From Microbacterium sp. ABRD28 (GTDB lineage: Bacteria; Actinomycetota; Actinomycetes; Actinomycetales; Microbacteriaceae), in contig NZ_CP031015.1 of the NCBI RefSeq assembly GCF_003850245.1, forward strand, positions 806,001-870,000: a stretch of 64,000 nucleotides of DNA, read 5' to 3'. The notes beneath the pieces were generated by a model. It had not been told where the DNA came from. It did no database searches and saw nothing but the letters and a program-made list of their open reading frames with translations. Position 1 is the first letter of the stretch. Every line of letters begins with the position of its first letter. A program made the position numbers and the translations under genes. Shown here piece after piece: positions 1 through 29,524 of this stretch.

Positions 1-90
1 GTGACGTGTCCGAGCGGCCGAAGGTGCAACTCTCGAAAAGTTGTGTAGGGTAACCCCCTACCGTGGGTTCAAATCCCACCGTCACCGCCA
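1..90 (+). tRNA. tRNA-Ser (anticodon CGA), first base outside the window
   Basis: The sequence folds as a class II tRNA. The anticodon stem CAACT/AGTTG encloses a 7-base loop CTCGAAA with anticodon CGA, there is a long variable arm, and the T arm is GTGGG-TTCAAAT-CCCAC. The acceptor 3' strand CGTCACC (80-86) needs GGTGACG at the 5' end, but the window opens with GTGACG, so one G lies upstream. CCA is encoded at 88-90. Its 3' end serves as the attachment-type sequence repeated at 21562 and 28695. Confidence 0.95.
67..88 (+). repeat. Attachment-type repeat, copy 1 (tRNA-Ser 3' end)
   Basis: These 22 bases cover the T loop, T stem 3' strand and acceptor 3' strand of tRNA-Ser. They recur exactly at 28695-28716, and the last part recurs at 21562-21576. 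Integrase-type elements commonly use this portion of a tRNA gene. Treating it as attL is an inference from the repeats, since no integrase gene is seen. Confidence 0.75.
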
Positions 91-6317: not shown

Positions 6318-7156
6318 ACACGCTCAACAAGACACAGCTGGTGCTGCGCTACGGGGTGTTGTTCGCAGGAGCACTCGTATTCCTGTTCCCCTTTTACTAC
6401 ATGGTCGTCGGCTCTCTTCAGACCGCACCCGACACGTCGCTGGCTGGAGCCTTCCCCGACCCCGCCAATCTCTCCCTCGACAATTACGTCGCGATCAACG
6501 AACGCATCAACCTGTGGTCCGGACTCGTCAACTCCGGGATCTTCACCGGCGGGGTGGTGCTCACCAGCGTCGTCTTCGGGAGCCTAGCCGGGTACTCCCT
6601 CGCAATCCTCCGCTGGCGGGGGAGAGGGTTCACCTTCGGGCTGGTGCTCCTCGTCCAGGTCATTCCGTTCCAGCTGCTGATGATCCCCCTCTATGTCCTC
6701 ATCGCCCGCGACTATGGCCTTGCCGATACATACCTCGGGATGATCCTGCCGTTCGCTGTGAACGCGACTGTCGTCATCGTGTTCCGCCAGTACTTCCTTC
6801 AACTCCCCAAGGAATTGTTCGACGCAGCCCGAATCGACGGTGCGGGAGAGTTGAAGATTCTGACCAAGGTCGCGTTGCCCTTGATCAGGCCCGCGCTGGT
6901 GACAGCCGTTCTGATGACGTTCATCGGCCCGTGGAACGAGTTCCTCTGGCCGTTCCTCATCACAAAGGACGCGTCGATGCAGCCTCTCGCCGTCTCCCTC
7001 GCCAACTACGCGGAGACCGTCGCCGCAGCCACTGCCAACCCGCTCGGGGCAATCCTCGCGGGTGCCGTCGTCCTCGCCGCACCCGCGGTCGGGCTGTTCA
7101 TCGTCTTCCAGCGCTACTTCGTTTCGACGGGGCTCGGCTCCGCCGTGAAGGGATAA
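6314..7156 (+). CDS. Sugar ABC transporter permease (MalG type)
   Basis: The 280-residue partner permease starts at GTG 6314, overlapping the previous stop codon. It has six membrane helices and a clear EAA loop (ELFDAARIDGAGELKIL, about residues 167-183). The GGAG just upstream lies within the preceding gene. It pairs with the MalF-type subunit to form the translocation channel. GH130 follows after 6 bases, linking uptake directly to intracellular glycoside breakdown. Confidence 0.93.
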   Translation: MNTLNKTQLVLRYGVLFAGALVFLFPFYYMVVGSLQTAPDTSLAGAFPDPANLSLDNYVAINERINLWSGLVNSGIFTGGVVLTSVVFGSLAGYSLAILRWRGRGFTFGLVLLVQVIPFQLLMIPLYVLIARDYGLADTYLGMILPFAVNATVVIVFRQYFLQLPKELFDAARIDGAGELKILTKVALPLIRPALVTAVLMTFIGPWNEFLWPFLITKDASMQPLAVSLANYAETVAAATANPLGAILAGAVVLAAPAVGLFIVFQRYFVSTGLGSAVKG

Positions 7157-18757: not shown

Positions 18758-19940
18758 TCATCTGCGGAGGGATTGCGGAGTGCGGTGCTCGCACCCTGCT
18801 GGCCTCGAAAGTGGGAACGCGCTCCGCGGCAGCCACGTCCCGCCCGGATCACCGACCCTCCAGGCGATCGCACCGCTTCGGGCTTTGCCGCGCGGAGGCC
18901 ACTGTGCGGGTGGCGCGTCCATACCGAGGTGGATGCGAGTGCGCTTCCGCTCGATCACGATGAACACGCTGCCAAGAAGCCAGAGCGGCACCTGGGTGAG
19001 GAACGCGACGCGGAATGCATCGAGTGGTTACGTCGCCGGCGTACCCGCGCCTTGCAGGTCCAGCGCGAGTCCGATCGCGAAGATCGCGATGAGCGCCGCC
19101 AGGAACCCGCCCGCGTTCGGCAGCCCCGTCGCGGTGCTCAAGCGATGTCGCGGGTTGTGGGTGCGTGCGTGGTCGAAGGCGATGAGCGACGCGGGACCGC
19201 CCGTGGCGGGTGCCAAAGCGAGAGTGAACAGTAGCCACAGTGGGGCGACGCCCGGATAGAGAATAACCACAGCCCAAGCAGCTACCTGCGCGCCGACGGC
19301 GGGCAGCACCAGGGCACGGGAGCGAAGGTGCGGTATGCGACGCGAGAATTCGCCCATGACCGGCCCGAGGATCATGCCGACGACAACGTAGGTGGACATG
19401 ATGGGCCGACTCAGCGACGGAGCGCCCCTGCGCCGCGGTGAGGAACGGCATGCCACACAGGAGCACAAATGCGGTGCCGGCAAACGGGGTGGTGAAATGC
19501 GACCAGAAGGCGAGACGCGTTCCAGGGTGTGCCCATGCGGCACGAATGCCGATACCAGTGTCGACCGAGGATGTTACAACGCGGACTGCGCCCGTGTCTG
19601 TGTCGACCGAGATGTCTCGGTCGCGATTCGGAGGGTGGTTTCGGATGAGCAGGACAACGAGGACTGCGAAGAGGGCGCCCAGCCCGCCGATGCTGCCGAA
19701 GGTGATGGTCCAGCTCGTCGCATCCAGCAGTGCGGCAAGGGGGATCAGTGCCAGGAGTTGCCCGGCCTGGCCCACGATTCCCGTTAATTGCACCATCAGG
19801 AATCCGCGTTGCGCCGGGAACCGCGTCGCGACCAGCCGGAGCGCGCCGGGGAAGATTGACGCATCGCCAGCGCCGAGCAGAACTCGCGCGAAGATGACGA
19901 TCCAATGCTTGGCGAGACCGCCATGACGATCTGTCCCATC
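18758..19940 (-). pseudogene. MFS transporter pseudogene (truncated, frameshifted, internal stop)
   Basis: The reverse strand encodes major-facilitator helices starting abruptly at LAKHWIVIFARVLLGAGDAS near 19915, so the first helices are missing where the IS3 remnant begins. Near 19400 the reading frame shifts after GMPFLTAAQG and continues with IMSTYVVVGMILGPVMG. At 19028-19030 an in-frame TAA interrupts the protein, yet the same frame continues with FRVAFLTQVPLWLLG, so this is one nonsense change. The frame stays open to 18758, although the natural end was probably nearer 18910. Three independent lesions make a functional product very unlikely. Confidence 0.8.
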
Positions 19941-20557
19941 GCGTCCGAGTGTTGAATGAGCCCGGTGACGTCTTCGCCCGCGCAGTCGCGGATCCAGAGA
20001 GCCATCTCGAGCGCATCCAACGGGAGGTCGGTGGGCATCCGGTTCATGGTCCGCCAGCCCACGATCCTGCGGGAGAACACGTCGGTGACGAACGCGGTGA
20101 ACGCCATCCCCGACCACGTCGGAACATAGGTGAAGTCGACCACCCAGAGCTCGTTCGGCCGGTTCGCGCGGAAGCAGCGCTGCACGTGATCCGGCGGCCG
20201 GAATGCCGCCCCGTCCGCTTTGGTGGTGATGAACTGCTTGCCGCGGCGGATCCCGCGCAGCCCCTGCTGCCGCATGAGCCGTTCGACCGTGCAACGGGCC
20301 ACGACGGTGCCCTGCCGTCGCAGCAGGTGCCAGACCTTCCGGGCGCCGCTGATCCCGCGGCCGAGCTTTCGGTCCCAGAACACCTTCTCGATCTGCACGA
20401 TCATCTCCGCGTCGCTGATCGCCCGCGCCGACGGCGGCCGCTTTTTGAACGCGTAGTAACCGGACGGAGCGATCGGCACGGCATGCTCGCTGAGCACCCG
20501 GCAGATCGGCTCGACCCCGAACCGGTCACGATGATCGTCGATGAACTGAACTACCAC
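19941..20557 (-). pseudogene. IS3-family transposase orfB, 3' truncated
   Basis: The frame starts at MVVQFIDDHRDRFGVEPICRVL and contains the HTH_21 region and the integrase core up to NELWVVDFTYVPTW and GLIQHSDA. Thus the first catalytic Asp and the second Asp region are present, but the final part with the catalytic Glu is gone. Translation would continue into unrelated MFS-derived sequence to 19796. It overlaps orfA by 7 bases, as expected for programmed frameshifting in this family. Not functional as it stands. Confidence 0.85.
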
Positions 20558-20886
20558 GGCAGTCGCGGGTCGAGCTCCCGCGCGAAGAACGACGAGGCCG
20601 CCAACAGAATCTCGTTCGCCCTCTTCAACTCCCGGTTCTCCGCCTCGAGCTGCTTGATCCGAGCCGCATCACTCGTCGTCGTCCCGGGACGCTCGCCCGC
20701 GTCAATCGCGGCCTGCTTGCACCAACCCCGCAGCGTGTCGGAATTGACCCCGACACGCTGCCCGATCCGGACCACTGCCTGATTCAGCGACAGCTCCGGA
20801 TCCTCCTTCCGGGCCTCAGCCACAAGCCGCATCGCACGCTCACGAAGCTCCGGCGGATACTTCCTCTGCGCTGGCATAGTCATCAT
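20551..20886 (-). CDS. IS3-family transposase orfA
   Basis: The 111-residue protein starts MMTMPAQRKYPPELRERAMRL, has a helix-turn-helix (LNQAVVRIGQRVGVNSDTLRGW) and ends in a leucine-zipper-like helix (IKQLEAENRELKRANEIL). It is the DNA-binding subunit that normally forms the transposase by frameshifting into orfB. The gene is intact, but its partner is truncated, so the element can only move if served in trans. Confidence 0.88.
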   Translation of the reverse strand: MMTMPAQRKYPPELRERAMRLVAEARKEDPELSLNQAVVRIGQRVGVNSDTLRGWCKQAAIDAGERPGTTTSDAARIKQLEAENRELKRANEILLAASSFFARELDPRLPW

Positions 20887-20929
20887 CCTCTCGGGGAATC
20901 AGACCCTCCACGAGACCCGGGGCAATTCA

Positions 20930-21469
20930 ATCCGCCGCGGGCGAGGCGGGTCGTGTAGACCATGCCGTTGTCGGTGAGCGTGCCGGTGGGGTACCCGTGT
21001 TCCTGGGGCGGCGGTAGTGAACGTATCGGTCACGGTGCGGCCAGTCACCCGGCGATGTGCGCTCAGGTGCAGGTAGCGGGAGTGGTCATCGAGCCAGCCG
21101 ATCACTTCCACGTCGTGTCCGGTGCTGAGCTGGACGTGGGTGAAGTCGGATTGCGAGAGCTCGTTGGGTCGATCCGCGGAGAACCTGCGCCATGAGGAGC
21201 GCGGTCGTTTCTGAGGCTGCGGGGTGACTCGACCTGCGGCAGTCAGGACCATCTAGACCGTGGCCCGCGAGGTCGTGCCGCTGAGGGGTGCGGTTCGGGC
21301 TTGAGCGGGGCCGCCGGGACTGCGGATCGAACGCGGCCTCGCCCTCCGTGAGCCATCGATGGTGCAGCTTGTGCACGAGCGATTTGGAGACGCCGTACCG
21401 AGTAGCGACCTGCCGGTAGGACAGTCCCTGGACGGTGACGGCTTTGATGAGCACCTCGTACTTGGCCAC
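20930..21469 (-). pseudogene. IS481-family transposase remnant, interrupted by IS3
   Basis: The N-terminal part (MAKYEVLIKAVTVQGLSYRQVATRYGV and on to about 21300) is the helix-turn-helix of IS481 transposases. After an internal loss and frame change, the integrase core resumes as RPNELSQSDFTHVQLSTGHDVEVIGWLDDHSRYL near 21170-21060. A further frameshift follows and the reading breaks off at TTRLARGG, exactly where the IS3 terminus begins at 20929. The C-terminal half is absent. I read this as an older IS481 copy into which IS3 inserted. Confidence 0.75.
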
Positions 21470-21561
21470 CGTTCACGATGTCTCGAGACATCAGACGACG
21501 ACACCACGAGCCGTCCATGATGACCCGAGACATGCGTCCACGATGTCCTGAACCCCAGACA

Positions 21562-21576
21562 CCACCGTCACCGCCA
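21562..21576 (+). repeat. Attachment-type repeat, copy 2
   Basis: CCACCGTCACCGCCA repeats the last 15 bases before and through the tRNA-Ser CCA end (76-90). The following ATAAATCC also matches the sequence after copy 3. It marks the junction between segments A and B. Confidence 0.7.
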
Positions 21577-21625
21577 TAAATCCCTGATCAAGAGGTGCTC
21601 CGAACTCTGTTCAGAGGTATCGAAG

Positions 21626-21656
21626 GAAGGCGTCGCGCCTCGTGCGCGGCGCCTTC
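21626..21656. terminator. Hairpin terminator after att copy 2
   Basis: GAAGGCGTCGCGC pairs with GCGCGGCGCCTTC, giving 13 pairs with one G-T, around a 5-base loop. A related hairpin lies at the same distance after att copy 3. It also sits between segment A and the convergent end of the FMN monooxygenase gene, so it can act as a terminator for that gene. Confidence 0.6.
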
Positions 21657-21682
21657 TCTCGCTTCTCACCGCCGCTGAGGAC

Positions 21683-23005
21683 TCAGGACGACGACAGGTT
21701 CGCGTGCAGCCCGCCTCCCGCGAACTCGGTACGCAGGATGCCGCGGCGCCGCAGAATCGGCACGATCTCGTCGAGCGCGCGGTGCAGCGTGACCGGGTGC
21801 AGGTCGCCCGAGAAGATGAGCCCGTCGTTGTCGGCGTCGTCCCCGAGAGCCTGGATGACATCGGCGAGCTCTTCGGCCGTCCCGACGGTGCCGCTGATGC
21901 CGTCGCCGATGCGGCCGAGCCGTGCCTTGCCGGCGAGGATCTCGCGGAACGGCACGTCGGCGAAGGAGTCGAAGCGACCGCGAAGGCCCTTGATGGTTCC
22001 CTGCGATACGTGTTCGCCGAAGATCGCCGGGTCCAGGGGTCGGTCGAGATCGAGGGTGGTGAGGTCGGTTTCGAGGTCGCTGGACCATGCCTCGGCGACC
22101 GCGAGGAGTGCCGCGTCGTCGGGGTTCGCGGATGCGGCGACGATACGGTCGGCTTCTTCCGTGGAAGACGCGACGATGGGTTTGAAGACGAACATCGTCT
22201 TGATGGCGCCGGGATCGCGGCCGTGTTCGACCGCGTCGGCGCGAACGCGTTCGCGGTAGCCGCGCACGGCCTCGACGTCGAGATTCGACAGGGCGAGCTG
22301 GATGTCCGAGTTCTCACCGGCGAATCGGATGCCGCGCGGCGACCCTCCAGGTGAGGCGATGACCGGCTCGGAGGAGAGCGGCTCGGCGTTCAGCGGACCG
22401 TCGAACGACCAGTACTTGCCGCGGTGCTCGACAGCGCGGATCTTCGTACCGTCGGCGTAGATCTGCGTCTCGGGATCGGCGATCAGTGCTCCGTCACCCC
22501 AGCTGCGCCACAGCAGTCGCAGCGCCTCGAGCCACTCCTGCGCGCGGTCGTAGGCCGCATCGTGCGGCAGGCGATCCTGGCCGAAGTGGTGGGCAGACCC
22601 GACATCGGTCACCACGTTCAGTCCGAGGCGGCCACCGGACAGGTGCTGCAACGAGGCGAACTGACGGGCGGCGGTGTACGGATGCCAGGCGGCGGGGTTG
22701 GCGGTCGGGATGACGCCGAGGTGCTCGGTGGCGGCGAAGAGGTACGGGGCGAGCGTCCACGGATCGTGCTTCGGGCCCCCGTAGGCCTTGCGCACCCGGA
22801 GGTCGAGCGTGGCGGGGCTGATACCGACGGAGAGGGCGTCCTCGATGAGCACGAAGTCGAAACCGGCCTGCTCGAGGGTGCGGGCGCCCTCTTGGTAGAG
22901 CCCGGGTGTGCGCCAGTCGTAGTTCCACTCGTAGTACGGGCGCCCCCATCCGTGAGGGCCGAAGCCGCGCGAGAGGAACCAGCCGAAGTGCTGCTGCTTG
23001 GTCAT
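21683..23005 (-). CDS. LLM-class FMN-dependent monooxygenase (NtaA/DszA-like)
   Basis: The 440-residue protein has a luciferase-like TIM barrel of the NtaA/SnaA/DszA subgroup: GWGRPYYEWNYDWRT near residue 20, HPYTAARQFASLQHLSGGRLGLNVVT near 110-135, and ASPGGSPRGIRFAG near 240. Members use reduced FMN and oxygen to cleave chelators or organosulfur compounds. The start at 23005 overlaps the MetY-type gene by ATGA. A flavin reductase is encoded nearby and could supply reduced FMN. An organosulfur substrate is likely from context; the exact substrate is unknown. Confidence 0.9.
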   Translation of the reverse strand: MTKQQHFGWFLSRGFGPHGWGRPYYEWNYDWRTPGLYQEGARTLEQAGFDFVLIEDALSVGISPATLDLRVRKAYGGPKHDPWTLAPYLFAATEHLGVIPTANPAAWHPYTAARQFASLQHLSGGRLGLNVVTDVGSAHHFGQDRLPHDAAYDRAQEWLEALRLLWRSWGDGALIADPETQIYADGTKIRAVEHRGKYWSFDGPLNAEPLSSEPVIASPGGSPRGIRFAGENSDIQLALSNLDVEAVRGYRERVRADAVEHGRDPGAIKTMFVFKPIVASSTEEADRIVAASANPDDAALLAVAEAWSSDLETDLTTLDLDRPLDPAIFGEHVSQGTIKGLRGRFDSFADVPFREILAGKARLGRIGDGISGTVGTAEELADVIQALGDDADNDGLIFSGDLHPVTLHRALDEIVPILRRRGILRTEFAGGGLHANLSSS

Positions 23006-24324
23006 GCGATCCCCGCGCGCTCGAGGAGATCGGCAGCCTGAACCGCGGCCAGTGCGCGGTCGAGATCCGCGATCAGGTCCTCGACATCCTCCAGGCCGAT
23101 CGAGACGCGCAGAAGTCCCTGCCCGATGCCCGCGGCGACGCGCTCGTCTTCCGTGCGGTGGACGTGCGTGGTCGAGGCGGGGTGAAGCACGAGCGAGCGG
23201 ACGTCGCCGAGGTGGGTCATCCGGGTGAACAGCCGCACGGAATTCGTGAACGTCTTCGCGGCATCCCTCCCGCCCCGCAGAGTGAAGGCGAACACCGACC
23301 CCTGCCCCCGCGGGAGGTACTGCTCCGCCAGTGGCCGGTAGGGGTTGGATGCGAGTCCGCTGTAGTCGACGGACTCGACAGCGGGATGCGCCTCGAGCCA
23401 CTCGGCGATGCGCTGGGCGGACTCGGAGTGCCGCTGCACGCGCAGCGACAGCGTCTCGATGCCCTGAAGGAGCAGGAACGCGGTGAAGGGCGACGGCGAA
23501 GGCCCCTGCCGCAGCGCGACGACCGACCTCGCGTACGCCGAGAACGCGGCGCGGCCGAAGCGATCGGCGACCGTGCGCCCGTCGGGGCCGCGGTCGTCCG
23601 AGAGGTGCGGGTAGCGGCCGTCGGTCGCGGTCCAGTCGATCCTGCCCGCGTCGACGATGACCCCTCCGAGAACCGTGCCGTGGCCGGCGAGGAACTTGCT
23701 CGCCGAGTGCACCACGATGTCCGCACCATGCTCGATCGGCCGCAGAAGGAAGGGAGTGGCGAGTGTGTTGTCGATGATCAACGGGATGCCGTGGCGCTGG
23801 GCGACGGTGGCGACGGCGCGGATGTCGAGGATGTCGTTCTTGGGGTTCGGAATCGACTCGGCGAACAGCACTCGTGTCTCCGGCCGGATGGCCGCCTCCC
23901 ACGCCTCCGGGTCGTTCGCGTCACCGACGAAGGATGTCGTGATGCCCAGTCGGGCGAAGTTGTCGCGGAAGAGCTCGCGAGACCCTTCGTAGATGCTGTT
24001 CGCCGACACGATGTGGTCGCCCGCGCCGACCAGGGCGAGCACCGCGGTGGAGACCGCGGCTTGGCCGCTCCCGACGAGAAGCGCATCCGCGCCGCCCTCG
24101 AGGTCGGCGATGCGCCGCTCGACCGCCGCGCTCGTCGGGTTGCCCGCCCGTGAATAGCTGTAGCCGTCATCGGCCTGGGCGAACCGTTCGTTCGCCTGAT
24201 CGAAGTCGTCGAACACGAATCCGGCCGTCAGATAGATCGGTGTCGCGCGCGGGCGGTGGGACTGGTCAAGTTCCACGCCGGCGTGGATCTGCCGGGTCGC
24301 GAACCCGAGCCCGTCAACGGGCAT
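23002..24324 (-). CDS. O-acetylhomoserine sulfhydrylase-like PLP enzyme (MetY family)
   Basis: A 440-residue Cys/Met-metabolism PLP enzyme. Landmarks are [22 protein letters not shown] (substrate and phosphate site), IIDNTLATP and the PLP lysine in [11 protein letters not shown] (Lys210). The two-residue pattern and length fit O-acetyl-L-homoserine sulfhydrylases, which make homocysteine directly from sulfide. Its gene overlaps the FMN monooxygenase gene, so released sulfur could be captured at once. Homocysteine would then feed the MesD-like methionine synthase of the same segment. Other enzymes of the fold (cystathionine synthase or lyase) cannot be excluded by eye. Confidence 0.88.
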
Positions 24325-24526
24325 CGACGTTCGCTCCCTCGTCGGTGGGCGAGTCTTCCTCAGCCTGCGAGTTCAGGACGGCGAGGTGCATCGCGTGCCA
24401 AATCTGAAGAGGGGGGATCGAACGCCGGGCAACCATGAAGGGAGAATAGAGCCGCCCTCGGGGCCCCTCCGATCGGTGCGTCACCCGAGGAAACACAGCT
24501 CGTCATCTCGCGTCACAGAGAACTCT
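24325..24526 (-). promoter_or_regulatory. Leader region of the MetY/monooxygenase operon, no riboswitch recognised
   Basis: About 200 bases separate the flavin reductase stop from the MetY start. Length suggests a regulated leader. A 60-codon frame (24314-24496, minus strand) overlaps the MetY start by 11 bases and could be a leader peptide, although it lacks a clear ribosome binding site and Cys- or Met-rich runs. I could not fit a SAM riboswitch core on this strand. Confidence 0.3.
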
Positions 24527-25027
24527 TCACTCACGGGGTCGGATGCGAGAGCCCTCCGTCTCGAGCCATTCGGCGATGATGACCCGTCGATCGTCGATGA
24601 CGGATGCCGGGAAGGCGAGTCCGCGGCTCGGTACCGAGGCCCCGAGCTCGACCAGCAACGGTCGCAGCGTGTGCTCCACAGCGAGGGCGTGCGCCGGCGC
24701 GCCGATCGTCATCACCGGAATCGCGGTCACCGCGGCCAGTCCGGAAGACGGATAGCGGTCGAGGAACGCCTTGAGCAGCCCGGTGTACGCCGCCTTGTAC
24801 GTCGGGCTGGCGACGATGAGGATGCCCGCGGCAGCGACGCGTGAGAGCAAGGCGTCGACGTCCTCGTCGGGGAATCGGAACACCCTCTCCGCGACGTCGG
24901 CGAGATCGATGGTGGGCTCGGCGTGAGCACCTGTCCGCTCGGCCAGCTGGCCGGCGAGCTCCTCCGCCACGAGCCGGGTGCGCGAACCGGGTTGCGGGTT
25001 GCCGACGAGAACGACGATGGACGACAT
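24527..25027 (-). CDS. NADPH-dependent FMN reductase (SsuE-like)
   Basis: This 166-residue flavodoxin-like protein has VLVGNPQPGSRT near the N terminus (phosphate-binding loop) and SPTYKAAYTGLLKAFLDRYP at about 92-112, a segment typical of NADPH-dependent FMN reductases. It probably supplies reduced flavin to the FMN monooxygenase of the same strand and perhaps to the oxygen-dependent MesX/MesD system. It is divergent from the sulfurtransferase gene. Confidence 0.9.
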   Translation of the reverse strand: MSSIVVLVGNPQPGSRTRLVAEELAGQLAERTGAHAEPTIDLADVAERVFRFPDEDVDALLSRVAAAGILIVASPTYKAAYTGLLKAFLDRYPSSGLAAVTAIPVMTIGAPAHALAVEHTLRPLLVELGASVPSRGLAFPASVIDDRRVIIAEWLETEGSRIRPRE

Positions 25028-25219
25028 GGGTTCCTCACTGGCGGGGTCGGGAAGACCTGGTTCTTCCGCGCCAGGCTAGGGTTCTCGCTGCGGAGGGGCA
25101 CCGCTGTGCGACGAACTGTGACGTCCGGTCCTGGCCGCTTTGTTTCGTCGATGGTCGGCGGATTGCGCTCTGTTTCACCGCTCCACGACATGCTGCGCGG
25201 GACTTCGGACACTCGATGT

Positions 25220-26074
25220 ATGCCGCTGCTGATCACCGCGCTCGAGCTGGCCTCCGAGCTGAGGGCGGGGCGCAGTGTGCGGTTGCTGGACGTGCGGTGG
25301 CGTCTGAACCTGCCGGAGGGGCGACCGGGGTATGTGTCGGGCCATCTTCCCGCCGCTGTCTACGTCGACCTGGAGCGAGAACTGGCAGACCGCGGCCATC
25401 CGGAGGTCGGACGGTACCCGCTGCCGCGACATTCCGCCCTTCAGGACTCCACGAGACGCTGGGGGATCCGCGAGGGCGACCTCGTCGTCGCGTACGACGA
25501 CAACGATGCGGTGCCGGCCGCGCGCGCGTGGTGGCTTCTCCGCGAAAGAGGCGTGGATGTGAGAGTGCTCGACGGGGGCATCCGCGCCTGGGTGGCGGCC
25601 GGTCTTCCTATCGAGCGGGGTGACGTGCTGCCTCCGCGGGGCGACATCATCCTTTCCGAGCGCGATCCAGGGGTCGCGACCATCGATGATGCGGCACGAG
25701 CACCCGCCTCGGGGTACCTCATCGACGTCCGGTCGCCCGAGCACTACCGGGGTCAGTCGACCCGACTCGACGACGTGGCCGGCCACATCCCGGGCGCGGT
25801 CAACATACCGACCGTCTCCCACATCGCGCCCGATGGAACACTCCGGTCGGCCGAGGACATCCGCGCGACGATCGCCGCGGCGTCCGTCGATCCGAGCGCG
25901 CAGATCACGCTCTACTGCGGCACCGGGATCGCTTCTGCGCACTCGGCGCTCGCGTTCGCACGCGCGGGGATCGACACGCGCATCTACGTCGGATCCTGGA
26001 GCCAGTGGGCGCTCTCCTCCACCCGGCCGATCGCGCTCGGTCCCACGCCGTCCGCCGCGCTGCGCGGATGGTGA
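25220..26074 (+). CDS. Sulfurtransferase (two rhodanese domains)
   Basis: The 284-residue product has two rhodanese folds, an inactive N-terminal one (LLDVRWRLN ... GHLPAAVYVDL) and an active C-terminal one with LYCGTGIAS, in which Cys233 carries the persulfide. This matches thiosulfate or 3-mercaptopyruvate sulfurtransferases. The ATG at 25220 is chosen because the first rhodanese strand begins directly after it; upstream in-frame sequence is unrelated. It is divergent from the flavin reductase and precedes the MesX/MesD-like pair, so a role in sulfur supply is likely. Confidence 0.9.
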   Translation: MPLLITALELASELRAGRSVRLLDVRWRLNLPEGRPGYVSGHLPAAVYVDLERELADRGHPEVGRYPLPRHSALQDSTRRWGIREGDLVVAYDDNDAVPAARAWWLLRERGVDVRVLDGGIRAWVAAGLPIERGDVLPPRGDIILSERDPGVATIDDAARAPASGYLIDVRSPEHYRGQSTRLDDVAGHIPGAVNIPTVSHIAPDGTLRSAEDIRATIAAASVDPSAQITLYCGTGIASAHSALAFARAGIDTRIYVGSWSQWALSSTRPIALGPTPSAALRGW

Positions 26075-26171
26075 CGACTGTGCGCCCCGCGCCCCTGTCG
26101 GGTGGTGTGCGTACCTGTGTTACGCCGCACTTGCATGCCCGTGGTGAAGGGTTCATCGTCAGGACGACTAC

Positions 26172-27290
26172 ATGCCACCCGAACCCGATGGATCCTCGAT
26201 GAGTATTGTCTCCCCGGTCTCTCACCGGCCCGCTGCCGCATCGGAGTCGGCCGAGTCCGATGCGGACTGTCCCGTCGGCCTGACATTCCGTGTCGAGCGC
26301 ACGCGGTTCGACGAGACGTACGTGCCGCCCCGCAGCACCCGGCTGACCACCAACTACGCCAATCTCGCCCGTGGTGAGCGCCGTCAGGAGAACCTGCGCA
26401 ACGTCCTGACGATGATCGACGCGCGCTTCAACGATCTCGCCGATTGGGACAATCCCGACCGCGACCGCTACCGCGTCGAACTCCAGATCGTCTCGGTGGG
26501 CCTCCAGATCGACAGCGGCGGAGAAGCCGATCTCGAAACGCCCGCCTTCCCGCTCATCGAGATGCTTCAGACGACGATCGTGGACCGGCGGCTCGGCCGG
26601 CGCATCCCCGGCATCGTCGGCAACAACCTGTCTTCGTATGTGCGCGACTACGACTTCAGCATCCTCCTGCCCCGTCTCGCCGGAGAGAGCCCGAGCGGGG
26701 GCATCCCCGAGAGCTTCGGACAGCTCCACGGGAACCTGTTCCGCGCCTTTCTCGCGTCCGACGCGTACACCCGCGCTTTCGACACCTCGCCCGTCGTGTG
26801 CCTCAGCGCGTCGAGCACGAAGACCTACCACCGGACGGACAACCGTCATCCCCTTCTGGGTGTGGAGTACGTGCAGGACGAGTACTCGTTCACCGACACC
26901 TACTTCGCCAAGATGGGACTGGGCGTCCGCTACTTCATGCCGCCCGGCGGCGTCGCGCCGCTGGCGTTCTACTTCCGCGGCGACCTTCTGAGCGACTACG
27001 GGAACCTTCCGCTCATCGCGACGGTCAGCACGATGGAGACGTTCCAGAAGATCTATCGACCCGAGATCTACAACGCCAACGCCGCCGCGGGTGCGCGATA
27101 TCGTCCGAGCCTGGAGCACACCGACTTCTCCACGACGCAGGTCACCTATGACCGGGATGAGCGCGCGCGTCTCGCCGTCGAGCAGGGGAGATTCGCCGAC
27201 GAGGTGCTCATCGCCCCCCACGGGGAGAGGCTGCAGCGGTGGTCCGACCTGCAGTCCGCTCAGACCGGCGATCCGGAGGAGAAACGGTGA
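26172..27290 (+). CDS. mesX: DUF1852 protein, MesX-like partner of a folate-independent methionine synthase
   Basis: The 372-residue protein matches DUF1852 in my recollection: FRVERTRFDETY, RLTTNYANLARGERRQENL and DYDFSILLPRL. It overlaps a short MetE-like gene (GTGA). Published work on Acinetobacter described DUF1852 (MesX) as required, together with oxygen, for the short methionine synthase MesD. The biochemical role of MesX is not known. The start at 26172 has a GGACG upstream; an ATG at 26199 is an alternative and would remove nine residues. Gene symbol assigned by family and pairing, not by test. Confidence 0.82.
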   Translation: MPPEPDGSSMSIVSPVSHRPAAASESAESDADCPVGLTFRVERTRFDETYVPPRSTRLTTNYANLARGERRQENLRNVLTMIDARFNDLADWDNPDRDRYRVELQIVSVGLQIDSGGEADLETPAFPLIEMLQTTIVDRRLGRRIPGIVGNNLSSYVRDYDFSILLPRLAGESPSGGIPESFGQLHGNLFRAFLASDAYTRAFDTSPVVCLSASSTKTYHRTDNRHPLLGVEYVQDEYSFTDTYFAKMGLGVRYFMPPGGVAPLAFYFRGDLLSDYGNLPLIATVSTMETFQKIYRPEIYNANAAAGARYRPSLEHTDFSTTQVTYDRDERARLAVEQGRFADEVLIAPHGERLQRWSDLQSAQTGDPEEKR

Positions 27291-28378
27291 CACGAGACAT
27301 CCCGACCAGACTTCTTCCCACCTCGACGGCGGGCAGCCTGCCGAAGCCATCGTGGCTCGCACAGTCGCAGACCCTCTGGTCGCCGTGGAAACTGACCGGT
27401 GAGGAACTCGCCGGCGGCAAGCGGGACGCGCTGCGACTCTCCCTTGCCGATCAGCTCGAAGCGGGCCTCGACATCGTCGGTGACGGGGAGCAGACGCGGC
27501 AGCATTTCGTCACCACCTTCATCGAGAATCTCGTCGGGGTGGATTTCGAGAACCGCGCCACGGTGAGAGTCCGGGATCGATACGACGCAGCTGTGCCACG
27601 GGTCGTCGGGGATGTCTCCCGGGGCGCGCCGGTGTTCGTCGATGATGCCCGGTTCCTGCGCGCGCACACCGACCGGCCCATCAAGTGGGCTCTTCCCGGT
27701 CCGATGACCATGGTCGACACCCTCTTCGACGCGCACTACCGCAGCCGGGAGAAACTCGCGTGGGAGTTCGCCGGAATCCTCAACCAGGAGGCGAAGGACC
27801 TCGCCGCCGCCGGTGTCGACATCGTGCAGTTCGACGAGCCCGCCTTCACGGTGTTCCACGACGAGGCGAACGACTGGGGGATCGCCGCGCTGGAGCGCGC
27901 CGCATCCGGGTTGTCCTGTGAGACCGCGGTGCACATCTGCTACGGGTACGGCATCGAGGCCAACACCACCTGGAAGAAGACGCTCGGATCCGAGTGGCGC
28001 CAGTACGAGGAGACCCTTCCCACCCTGCAGCGGTCGAGTCTCGACATCCTTTCTCTGGAGCGTCACAACTCCCGCGTGCCGATCGAGCTTCTCGACCTCG
28101 CCCGGGGGAAGAAGCTCATGGTCGGCGCGATCGACGTGGCGACGAACACCGTCGAGACGCCGGAGGAGGTCGCCGACACGCTGCGCGCCGCGTTGCGTTT
28201 CGTCGATGCGGACAAGCTCTACCCGTCGACCAACTGCGGCATGGCACCGTTGGCGTCGAGCGTCGCTCGCGGGAAGCTGGCCGCGCTGTGCGCCGGGGCG
28301 GAGATCGTCCGGTCCGAGATCTCGGATGCTGCGGGCCAGCAGCCCTCCTCGACCGGCGCCGTCCGCACCGACGGATGA
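27287..28378 (+). CDS. mesD: MetE C-terminal-like methionine synthase, MesD-like
   Basis: At 363 residues this is only the catalytic half of cobalamin-independent MetE. The zinc ligands are in place: His216 and Cys218 (VHICYG), Glu259 (SLERHN) and Cys317 (NCGMAP). So is the homocysteine-binding QFDEPAF. The N-terminal half that helps bind folate is absent, so a methyl donor other than methyltetrahydrofolate is implied, as reported for MesD. The GTG start overlaps the MesX stop, an arrangement fitting an obligate pair. The methyl donor is unknown. Confidence 0.85.
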   Translation: MTRDIPTRLLPTSTAGSLPKPSWLAQSQTLWSPWKLTGEELAGGKRDALRLSLADQLEAGLDIVGDGEQTRQHFVTTFIENLVGVDFENRATVRVRDRYDAAVPRVVGDVSRGAPVFVDDARFLRAHTDRPIKWALPGPMTMVDTLFDAHYRSREKLAWEFAGILNQEAKDLAAAGVDIVQFDEPAFTVFHDEANDWGIAALERAASGLSCETAVHICYGYGIEANTTWKKTLGSEWRQYEETLPTLQRSSLDILSLERHNSRVPIELLDLARGKKLMVGAIDVATNTVETPEEVADTLRAALRFVDADKLYPSTNCGMAPLASSVARGKLAALCAGAEIVRSEISDAAGQQPSSTGAVRTDG

Positions 28379-28694
28379 CATCTGCCCGCACGGCCGATTC
28401 GCACCCCTTCGACCGGCTCGATCGGGCTCGGCTCGATCGGTCGGAGAGTCGCAAGTGGAGCCTGCACGCTGGGGCGATAGGCGCCTGGGTGGCGGAGATG
28501 GGCGCGCTGAGCAATCGAGAGCCGCCGAGACGCGGCGCGCATGGTGAAGCACCGGATGCGTGCCCCACCGCGAGTAAACCGTGAGGAAGAACGTGTCGCG
28601 ATCGATAGCCTCGGGGGCACCCGCGGAAGGTCCACTCCCGCGCAAACACAGGCGAGCATGGCCTCGCACACCCATGAGAGACCGGGGGATATGA
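28379..28694. other. Gene-free right end of segment B
   Basis: No protein family is recognisable between the mesD stop and att copy 3. Frames on both strands read as low-complexity Arg/Ser/Ala sequence. No integrase or excisionase fragment is visible. Confidence 0.5.
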
Positions 28695-28716
28695 GTTCAA
28701 ATCCCACCGTCACCGC
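28695..28716 (+). repeat. Attachment-type repeat, copy 3 (right end)
   Basis: The 22-base stretch GTTCAAATCCCACCGTCACC plus GC is identical to tRNA-Ser positions 67-88. No tRNA 5' half precedes it, so it is a displaced 3' end, as expected for attR. ATAAATCC follows, as after copy 2. Confidence 0.8.
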
Positions 28717-28769
28717 TATAAATCCTTTATCAGACGCCGATTTTGCTCTCGGTTGGATTCGTTTGGGGA

Positions 28770-28798
28770 GAGGCGTCGCGCCTGGAGCGCGGCGCTTC
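28770..28798. terminator. Hairpin after att copy 3
   Basis: GAGGCGTCGCGC pairs with GCGCGGCGCTTC (two G-T pairs) around a 5-base loop. It lies 54 bases after the repeat and shares most bases with the hairpin at 21626, which lies 49 bases after copy 2. It may be the original terminator of the tRNA gene. Confidence 0.55.
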
Positions 28799-28933: not shown

Positions 28934-29524
28934 TTACTTGCCCTCAGTGTCGGCCGCGTGTGCGGCGAGGAGGTCGACCCTCTCGACCAACCGCTCTACC
29001 GGGGGTGGATCGGTCCCGAACAGCAAGCTTGCGCAAAGTGGGGCGATGACGAGCTCGAAGACGTCCTCGGACGTGGGCACCGTCTCACCTCTGGCCGCCG
29101 CGCGGTCGAGCATGAGCTGAAGCTCGTCGAACCGACGCGACAAGGCTGGCGGTAAAGAGCCCCCGTCGCCGAGTCGCACGGAGACGAGCGTGCGTAGGAG
29201 CAGTACTCCCTCCGAGCCCGCGAGATCCTCCGCGGCTTGGCGCGCGTACTCCCGCAGGTCGTTCGCGTAGTCGCCGGTATCCGGCACCGGCGAGCGCGCG
29301 CTCAACCGTTCACTCACGACGTCGAGCAGGACGCCGTCCACGCTGCCCCATCTGCGGTACAGGGTGCCGAGGTGAACACCCGACCGCTCGGCGATCCGAG
29401 CCATCGTGATCTCGGCTAGCGGCTGCTCCGACTGGAGGGCCGTCACCGCTGCGTGAACGTCAGAGCGGACGCGGGCGGAGCGACCGCCCGGACGCTGGGC
29501 TTTCCGCGACGCCGGATCATTCAT
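28934..29524 (-). CDS. TetR-family transcriptional regulator
   Basis: The 196-residue protein has the TetR helix-turn-helix at about residues 35-60 (ITMARIAERSGVHLGTLYRRWGSVDGVL) and a helical ligand domain. It is the first chromosomal gene right of the attachment-type repeat. It is divergent from the SnoaL-like gene, with a 16-bp inverted repeat in the shared region, so it probably represses that neighbour and itself. The ligand is unknown. Confidence 0.9.
   Translation of the reverse strand: MNDPASRKAQRPGGRSARVRSDVHAAVTALQSEQPLAEITMARIAERSGVHLGTLYRRWGSVDGVLLDVVSERLSARSPVPDTGDYANDLREYARQAAEDLAGSEGVLLLRTLVSVRLGDGGSLPPALSRRFDELQLMLDRAAARGETVPTSEDVFELVIAPLCASLLFGTDPPPVERLVERVDLLAAHAADTEGK

Follow-up and report, generated by a model that had tools for sequence, protein, structure and literature searches.

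A MesX/MesD methionine synthase pair in a sulfur gene cassette of Microbacterium, and the near-exclusion of MesX and the folate branch across the genus

MesD and MesX were named by Price et al. (2021, PMC7857596), who list Actinobacteria among the holders of the pair. It is the sole methionine synthase in 22% of the holders, 69% of which seem to be without MetF, with Paenarthrobacter aurescens as an example. The mesX and mesD genes of Sphingomonas koreensis rescue metE and metF deletions of E. coli in air and not anaerobically. The same paper reports a putative flavin reductase often near mesX/mesD and predicts a flavin in MesX, the substrate of which was unknown as of 2021. Elsewhere, in A. 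baumannii both the DUF1852 gene and a flavin reductase are expressed less under B12 (PMC12892962), two MesD holders escaped N2O (PMC13059711), and the PF08908-metE2 genes of Proteobacteria are under MetR regulation (PMC4239095). A different core-type methionine synthase is treated in PMC12366255, and Price et al. are cited in PMC13257386. Our literature searches, mostly outside subscription papers and preprints, returned no paper naming the MesX substrate (MesX, DUF1852, MesD) and no description of the genus distribution reported here (Microbacterium with methionine synthase and metF).

Here we analyse a stretch of 64,000 nucleotides of the Microbacterium sp. ABRD28 genome, referred to as the window, which holds a mesX/mesD locus (Table 1). 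The occurrence of MesX/MesD in an actinobacterium is not new, having been published already (Price et al. 2021, PMC7857596). The protein families, the gene adjacency, the zinc and homocysteine residues and the missing folate domain are common to the window and to the MesD/MesX systems of S. koreensis and Acinetobacter baylyi, and a sole synthase without MetF is reported there too, as in Paenarthrobacter aurescens. The window differs in that its pair lies on a tRNA-Ser island together with a rhodanese, a monooxygenase and MetY. Its flavin reductase is of the PF03358 type; the published systems are described as often having a putative flavin reductase nearby. The interest of the locus lies in the genus-wide near-exclusion of MesX and the folate branch, in the two unrelated reductase partners of the pair, and in the tRNA-Ser cassette.

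Table 1. Coordinates of the features of the window, with the evidence for each
Feature	Position	Strand	Evidence
tRNA-Ser (CGA) at the island's left edge, with its first base just one position beyond the window	1–90	+	ARAGORN on L139
IS3-family insertion sequence, just outside the cassette	19796–20886	-	NF033516, 171.5 bits (cut-off 160); HTH_Tnp_1
Left cassette-flanking repeat, a worn copy of the tRNA-Ser end	21553–21652	.	19 of 26 bases at 21553–21578
Luciferase-like FMN monooxygenase, NtaA/DmoA/DszA type	21683–23005	-	PF00296, 134.9 bits
metY, O-acetylhomoserine sulfhydrylase family	23002–24324	-	TIGR01326, 515.5 bits (cut-off 495.1)
NAD(P)H-dependent FMN reductase, SsuE/MsuE-like	24527–25027	-	PF03358, 88.5 bits (cut-off 24)
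Rhodanese-type sulfurtransferase, two-domain, upstream of mesX, ATG at 25220	25220–26074	+	PF00581, 100 bits, 2 stretches
mesX (DUF1852, putative oxygenase MesX), 372 aa	26172–27290	+	PF08908, 519 bits (cut-off 25)
mesD, core methionine synthase, 363 aa	27287–28378	+	NF006589, 625 bits (cut-off 392)
Right repeat, with the tRNA-Ser 3' end copied exactly over 22 nt and a further repeat downstream of it	28695–28795	.	Repeat search

A sequence-only reading of the window had proposed a DUF1852 gene overlapping a MetE half that lacks the folate-binding N-terminal half, and the profile searches bear this out. The PF08908 match, named "Putative oxygenase MesX" in the Pfam copy used, spans MesX residues 37–358; the N-terminal 35 or so residues lie outside the profile and were of low confidence in a first structure model. 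The mesX stop and the GTG start of mesD share 4 bp. The sole Pfam match of MesD is Meth_synt_2 (PF01717, 124.8 bits), and its nearest solved relative is 3rpd (589 bits); the family threshold of Price et al. is 560 bits to ACIAD3523 (PMC7857596). MesD has in common with the B12-independent, folate-dependent MetE the C-terminal zinc catalytic domain, but the N-terminal folate domain (PF08267) is absent from MesD by Pfam scan and from the whole genome.

The four zinc ligands that had been proposed for MesD are all kept, and His216, Cys218 and Cys317 were numbered correctly; the glutamate is Glu258, not Glu259. His216, Cys218 and Glu258 are invariant in all 99 aligned MesD sequences, and Cys317 is present in 98, the remaining row having a gap. 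The 3RPD structure is that of a MesD, in which Ser22, Glu73 and Asp188 bind homocysteine and Tyr226 is MesD-specific (Price et al. 2021, PMC7857596). The corresponding residues of the window protein (S17, E68, D183 and Y221, at an offset of 5 from the printed numbers) are each found in 99 of 99 rows. Judged by its sequence, the pair is a MesX/MesD system, a well-formed member of the published kind.

Profile searches of the complete genome (3.27 Mb, a single contig, 100% complete) found no Met_synt_B12, the reactivation domain of MetH, no MTHFR (MetF) and no MetE N-domain, and the one Meth_synt_2 protein encoded there is MesD. The genome does encode, as a stand-alone protein, a homocysteine S-methyltransferase (NF007020, 346.6 bits, cut-off 215), which we take from family knowledge to use S-methylmethionine and hence to offer no de novo route. 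Apart from the putative MesX/MesD synthase, no de novo methionine synthase was identified in this genome. By analogy with the described pairs, the synthase is predicted to need oxygen and to be independent of MetF and cobalamin. The genome also encodes five full-length PF01053 enzymes, so that the MetY near mesX is not the sole candidate for making homocysteine.

We searched the same 366 Microbacterium genomes for every marker, with the window protein as the MesX query. Three genomes of the set, G515, G595 and G449, have a MesX identical to that of the M. oxydans, Microbacterium sp. Gd 4-13 and M. galbinum loci, in keeping with the genus assignment. MesX was found in 184 genomes, partial matches being scored as present (for example G715, E 3.4e-17), the MetE N-domain in 160 (counted as 159 after a weak match in G399, E 7.7e-4, was dropped), and the MetH domain in 74. 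MTHFR matches occur in 250 genomes, 169 of them strong (E 1.3e-35 and lower) and 81 weak (E 8.2e-4 to 2.1e-18), with the gap between the two classes set by eye. The weak matches were not counted as MetF; if all 250 were counted, 76 of the 184 MesX genomes would hold one. MesX and MetE are near-exclusive, being found together in 4 of the 366 genomes, and MetE, MetH and strong MetF are all missing from 171 of the 184 MesX genomes. MesX occurs with both MetH and MetF in eight genomes and with MetF alone in one. Of the 169 genomes with MetE or MetH, 167 have strong MetF, versus 2 of the 197 without either; Fisher p-values on these counts are not probabilities, since the genomes are mutually related. 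The distribution of strong MetF thus tracks MetE/MetH rather than MesX, which is what a MesX/MesD synthase independent of 5-methyl-tetrahydrofolate (5-methyl-THF) would predict.

The 81 genomes with a weak PF02219 match lack a strong MetF, and 63 of them are MesX genomes. No MesX, MetE or MetH domain was found in 25 of the 366 genomes; these are possibly auxotrophs, incomplete genomes or holders of another core synthase. A distant Meth_synt_2 homologue occurs in 19 of the 25, the best being L138:1435-2577 (NF005085/PRK06520, 542 bits, cut-off 313). In a phylum-wide sample, MesX was found in 3 of 396 genomes, all three Microbacterium; the Paenarthrobacter holder of Price et al. (PMC7857596) shows that MesX is not confined to this genus among actinobacteria.

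Two further observations concern MesX/MesD loci elsewhere. A divergent MesD, 53–56% identical to that of the window, lies beside MesX in L028, L056, L067, L070, L078 and L083, from Roseateles, Comamonas, Xenophilus and Hydrogenophaga hosts, and the other named loci are 68–79% identical. In L024, a record titled Bacillus subtilis SK6B4, MesX is very close in the tree to that of Pseudochrobactrum (L031), possibly through contamination or a mislabelled record.

The flavin reductase, FMN monooxygenase and MetY that had been recognized beside the pair are confirmed by their PF03358, PF00296 and TIGR01326 matches, and the ATG of the monooxygenase overlaps the metY stop. More specific models place some of these proteins less closely. 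The rhodanese scores 110.8 bits against NF008557 (cut-off 250), the FMN reductase 99 bits against TIGR03567 (cut-off 164), and the monooxygenase 270.6 bits against TIGR03860, the NtaA/DmoA family model, just below the cut-off of 279.7. An FMN reductase with a luciferase-like monooxygenase is common to the cassette and to the Ssu, Msu and Sfn two-component organosulfur monooxygenases, although the cassette monooxygenase scores well short of the SsuD and SfnG model cut-offs and has DszA and YtnJ as its closest solved structures. The cassette FMN reductase could serve this monooxygenase alone.

Beyond the window, we retrieved 18 MesX loci of Microbacterium, drawn from the 183 other MesX genomes. 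The six genes keep the same order and orientation in four genomes, that of the window and three of the retrieved loci (L119, L120 and L121), which are the three genus loci whose MesX is more than 80% identical to that of the window; the L121 rhodanese lacks about 0.38 kb from its middle. The set is absent from the other 15 retrieved loci, one of which, L133, does have a distant MetY-like stretch at a separation of 8 kb. The 80 named MesX loci, which are the top 80 among at least 592 relatives, also lack the set; in L076 and L077 there are single weak MetY-like and FMN-reductase-like matches.

The DNA similarity between the window and L119 runs from 21652 to 28501 at 95.8%. L119 and L120 carry a PatB-like C–S lyase gene after mesD (TIGR04350, about 292 bits, cut-off 340), and the similarity of the window to both loci ends before this lyase and before a second MetY of L120. 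That second MetY is 52% identical to the first and lies with a nitroreductase-family gene, which has a weak BluB match, in the cassette region of genome G610 (L120:3391-6593). Across L119–L121, MetY and the monooxygenase are 94–99% identical to the window proteins, MesX 81–96% and the reductase 66–95%, and these unequal identities indicate that parts of the cassette differ in history. A MetY–monooxygenase pair without MesX is found on a Microbacterium plasmid (MetY 59%, monooxygenase 66.7%), showing that the two modules are separable. On this plasmid (L148:7721-13599) the pair sits beside an ABC transporter with OsmF and ProV (glycine-betaine) matches below their cut-offs, a hint that the transporter may import a betaine-like sulfur compound.

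The segment had been described as mobile-looking, and the IS3 transposase, the tRNA-Ser at the left edge and the repeats agree with that description. The 3' end of the tRNA-Ser (67–88) is repeated exactly over 22 nt at 28695–28716, where 0 such repeats were expected in 100 shuffles. Direct repeats with starts at 21562 and 21628 have their second copies at 28704 and 28771, with a spacing of 7142–7143 and the cassette between them. L120 and L121 have the same tRNA-like ends on both flanks of the cassette region, and beyond one such end L120 has a TetR gene 96% identical to the window gene at 28934–29524. In the MesX tree the four cassette MesX proteins group together on a separate branch with support 100, away from the remaining genus rows; support at deeper nodes is weak. 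The IS3 element contains an ALIL pseudoknot (20465–20593), and next to it lie pieces of a second transposase (rve and helix-turn-helix, 20899–21469). No integrase was found among ten window proteins scanned between 680 and 18148. We read the region as a tRNA-Ser island of which the cassette is one module.

A flavin reductase lies directly beside mesX/mesD in 46 of 99 loci, being of the PF01613 type in 30 and of the PF03358 type in 16 and never both (the neighbour models were run on the loci from which they were built, the PF01613-type model having been built without L072 and L033), and one further reductase match occurs elsewhere in the flanks examined. As no reductase of either type is found within 4 kb in 53 of the 99 loci, it is not an obligate neighbour of the pair. 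A fold search with MesX among solved structures gave no significant match of any kind, and none to a flavin enzyme; the underlying alignment omitted six loci whose extended reading contains a stop and retained 40 of the remaining 74. We infer, with the chances about evenly balanced, that MesX is a two-component oxygenase, which would receive reduced flavin in trans from whichever reductase is available.

The explanation that we consider likely is that the window holds a standard MesX/MesD synthase, the only identified de novo route to methionine in its genome, in a compact sulfur cassette within a tRNA-Ser-bounded island. MetY would make homocysteine from O-acetylhomoserine and reduced sulfur, as its family does, and the flavin monooxygenase, working with the FMN reductase, probably releases sulfur from an organosulfur compound. 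MesD would bind homocysteine as a zinc thiolate through the residues given above, the chemistry being that of the family. MesX would supply the methyl group by an oxygen-dependent reaction that bypasses 5-methyl-THF, as published for S. koreensis (PMC7857596); for the present genome this bypass gains support from the fact that MetE, MetH and MetF are all missing.

The sequence-only reading had gone further, suggesting that these genes together could form a full path from organosulfur to methionine. The genes are indeed present and their order is kept, and the path itself is possible but unproven, because the cassette is rare and MetY and the monooxygenase are also found without MesX. In a strict form of this idea, the monooxygenase would cleave a methylated sulfur compound, MetY would take the sulfur, and MesX/MesD would use the one-carbon product or share the reductase. 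We think such integration quite improbable. The adjacency of all the genes in four genomes speaks for it, as do the C–S lyase next to mesD in L119 and L120, albeit below its model cut-off, and the second MetY of L120. It is opposed by the loci without the set (15 of 18 in the genus and 80 of 80 named), the plasmid pair and the different identities of the two cassette halves. Moreover, mesX and mesD alone suffice in E. coli, which makes the neighbours dispensable for providing the methyl group in that host (PMC7857596).

The opposite view, that the neighbours are unrelated island cargo, that the FMN reductase serves only the monooxygenase and that MesX needs no reduced flavin, fits the rarity of the gene set, the 53 loci without a close reductase and the repeats and insertion sequence, which show that the region gathers genes. 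We regard it as unlikely, since one or the other of two unrelated reductases adjoins mesX/mesD in 46 loci versus a single further match in the flanks. It is very improbable that MesX/MesD still uses a folate methyl group provided by a MetF-like protein too distant for a strong match. Weak MTHFR matches in 63 of the 184 MesX genomes could point to such a protein, but there is no match in the window's genome or in the remaining MesX genomes without MetF, MesD is missing the folate domain, and the pair rescued a metF deletion (PMC7857596).

Taking the standard MesX/MesD synthase as the preferred reading, we tentatively extend it to the genus, as a possibility that we rate below even: a mobile, oxygen-powered MesX/MesD would make the MetE/MetH/MetF branch dispensable and would have displaced it in about half of the genus, with MesX an oxygenase that depends on reduced flavin and has a fold with no significant solved match so far, taking the methyl group from a central metabolite and served in trans by reductases of unrelated families. 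That two unrelated reductase families adjoin mesX/mesD speaks for a mechanism based on reduced flavin and suggests which partners to use in a reconstitution, and in the cassette MesX/MesD is seen to travel with homocysteine-making genes and organosulfur genes. For tracing the methyl donor of MesX/MesD, a question that dates from 2021 in the literature searched, the genus offers a natural experiment: folate-based and MesX-based synthesis nearly exclude each other there, MetF is lost as well, and related Microbacterium strains can be labelled, swapped and compared.
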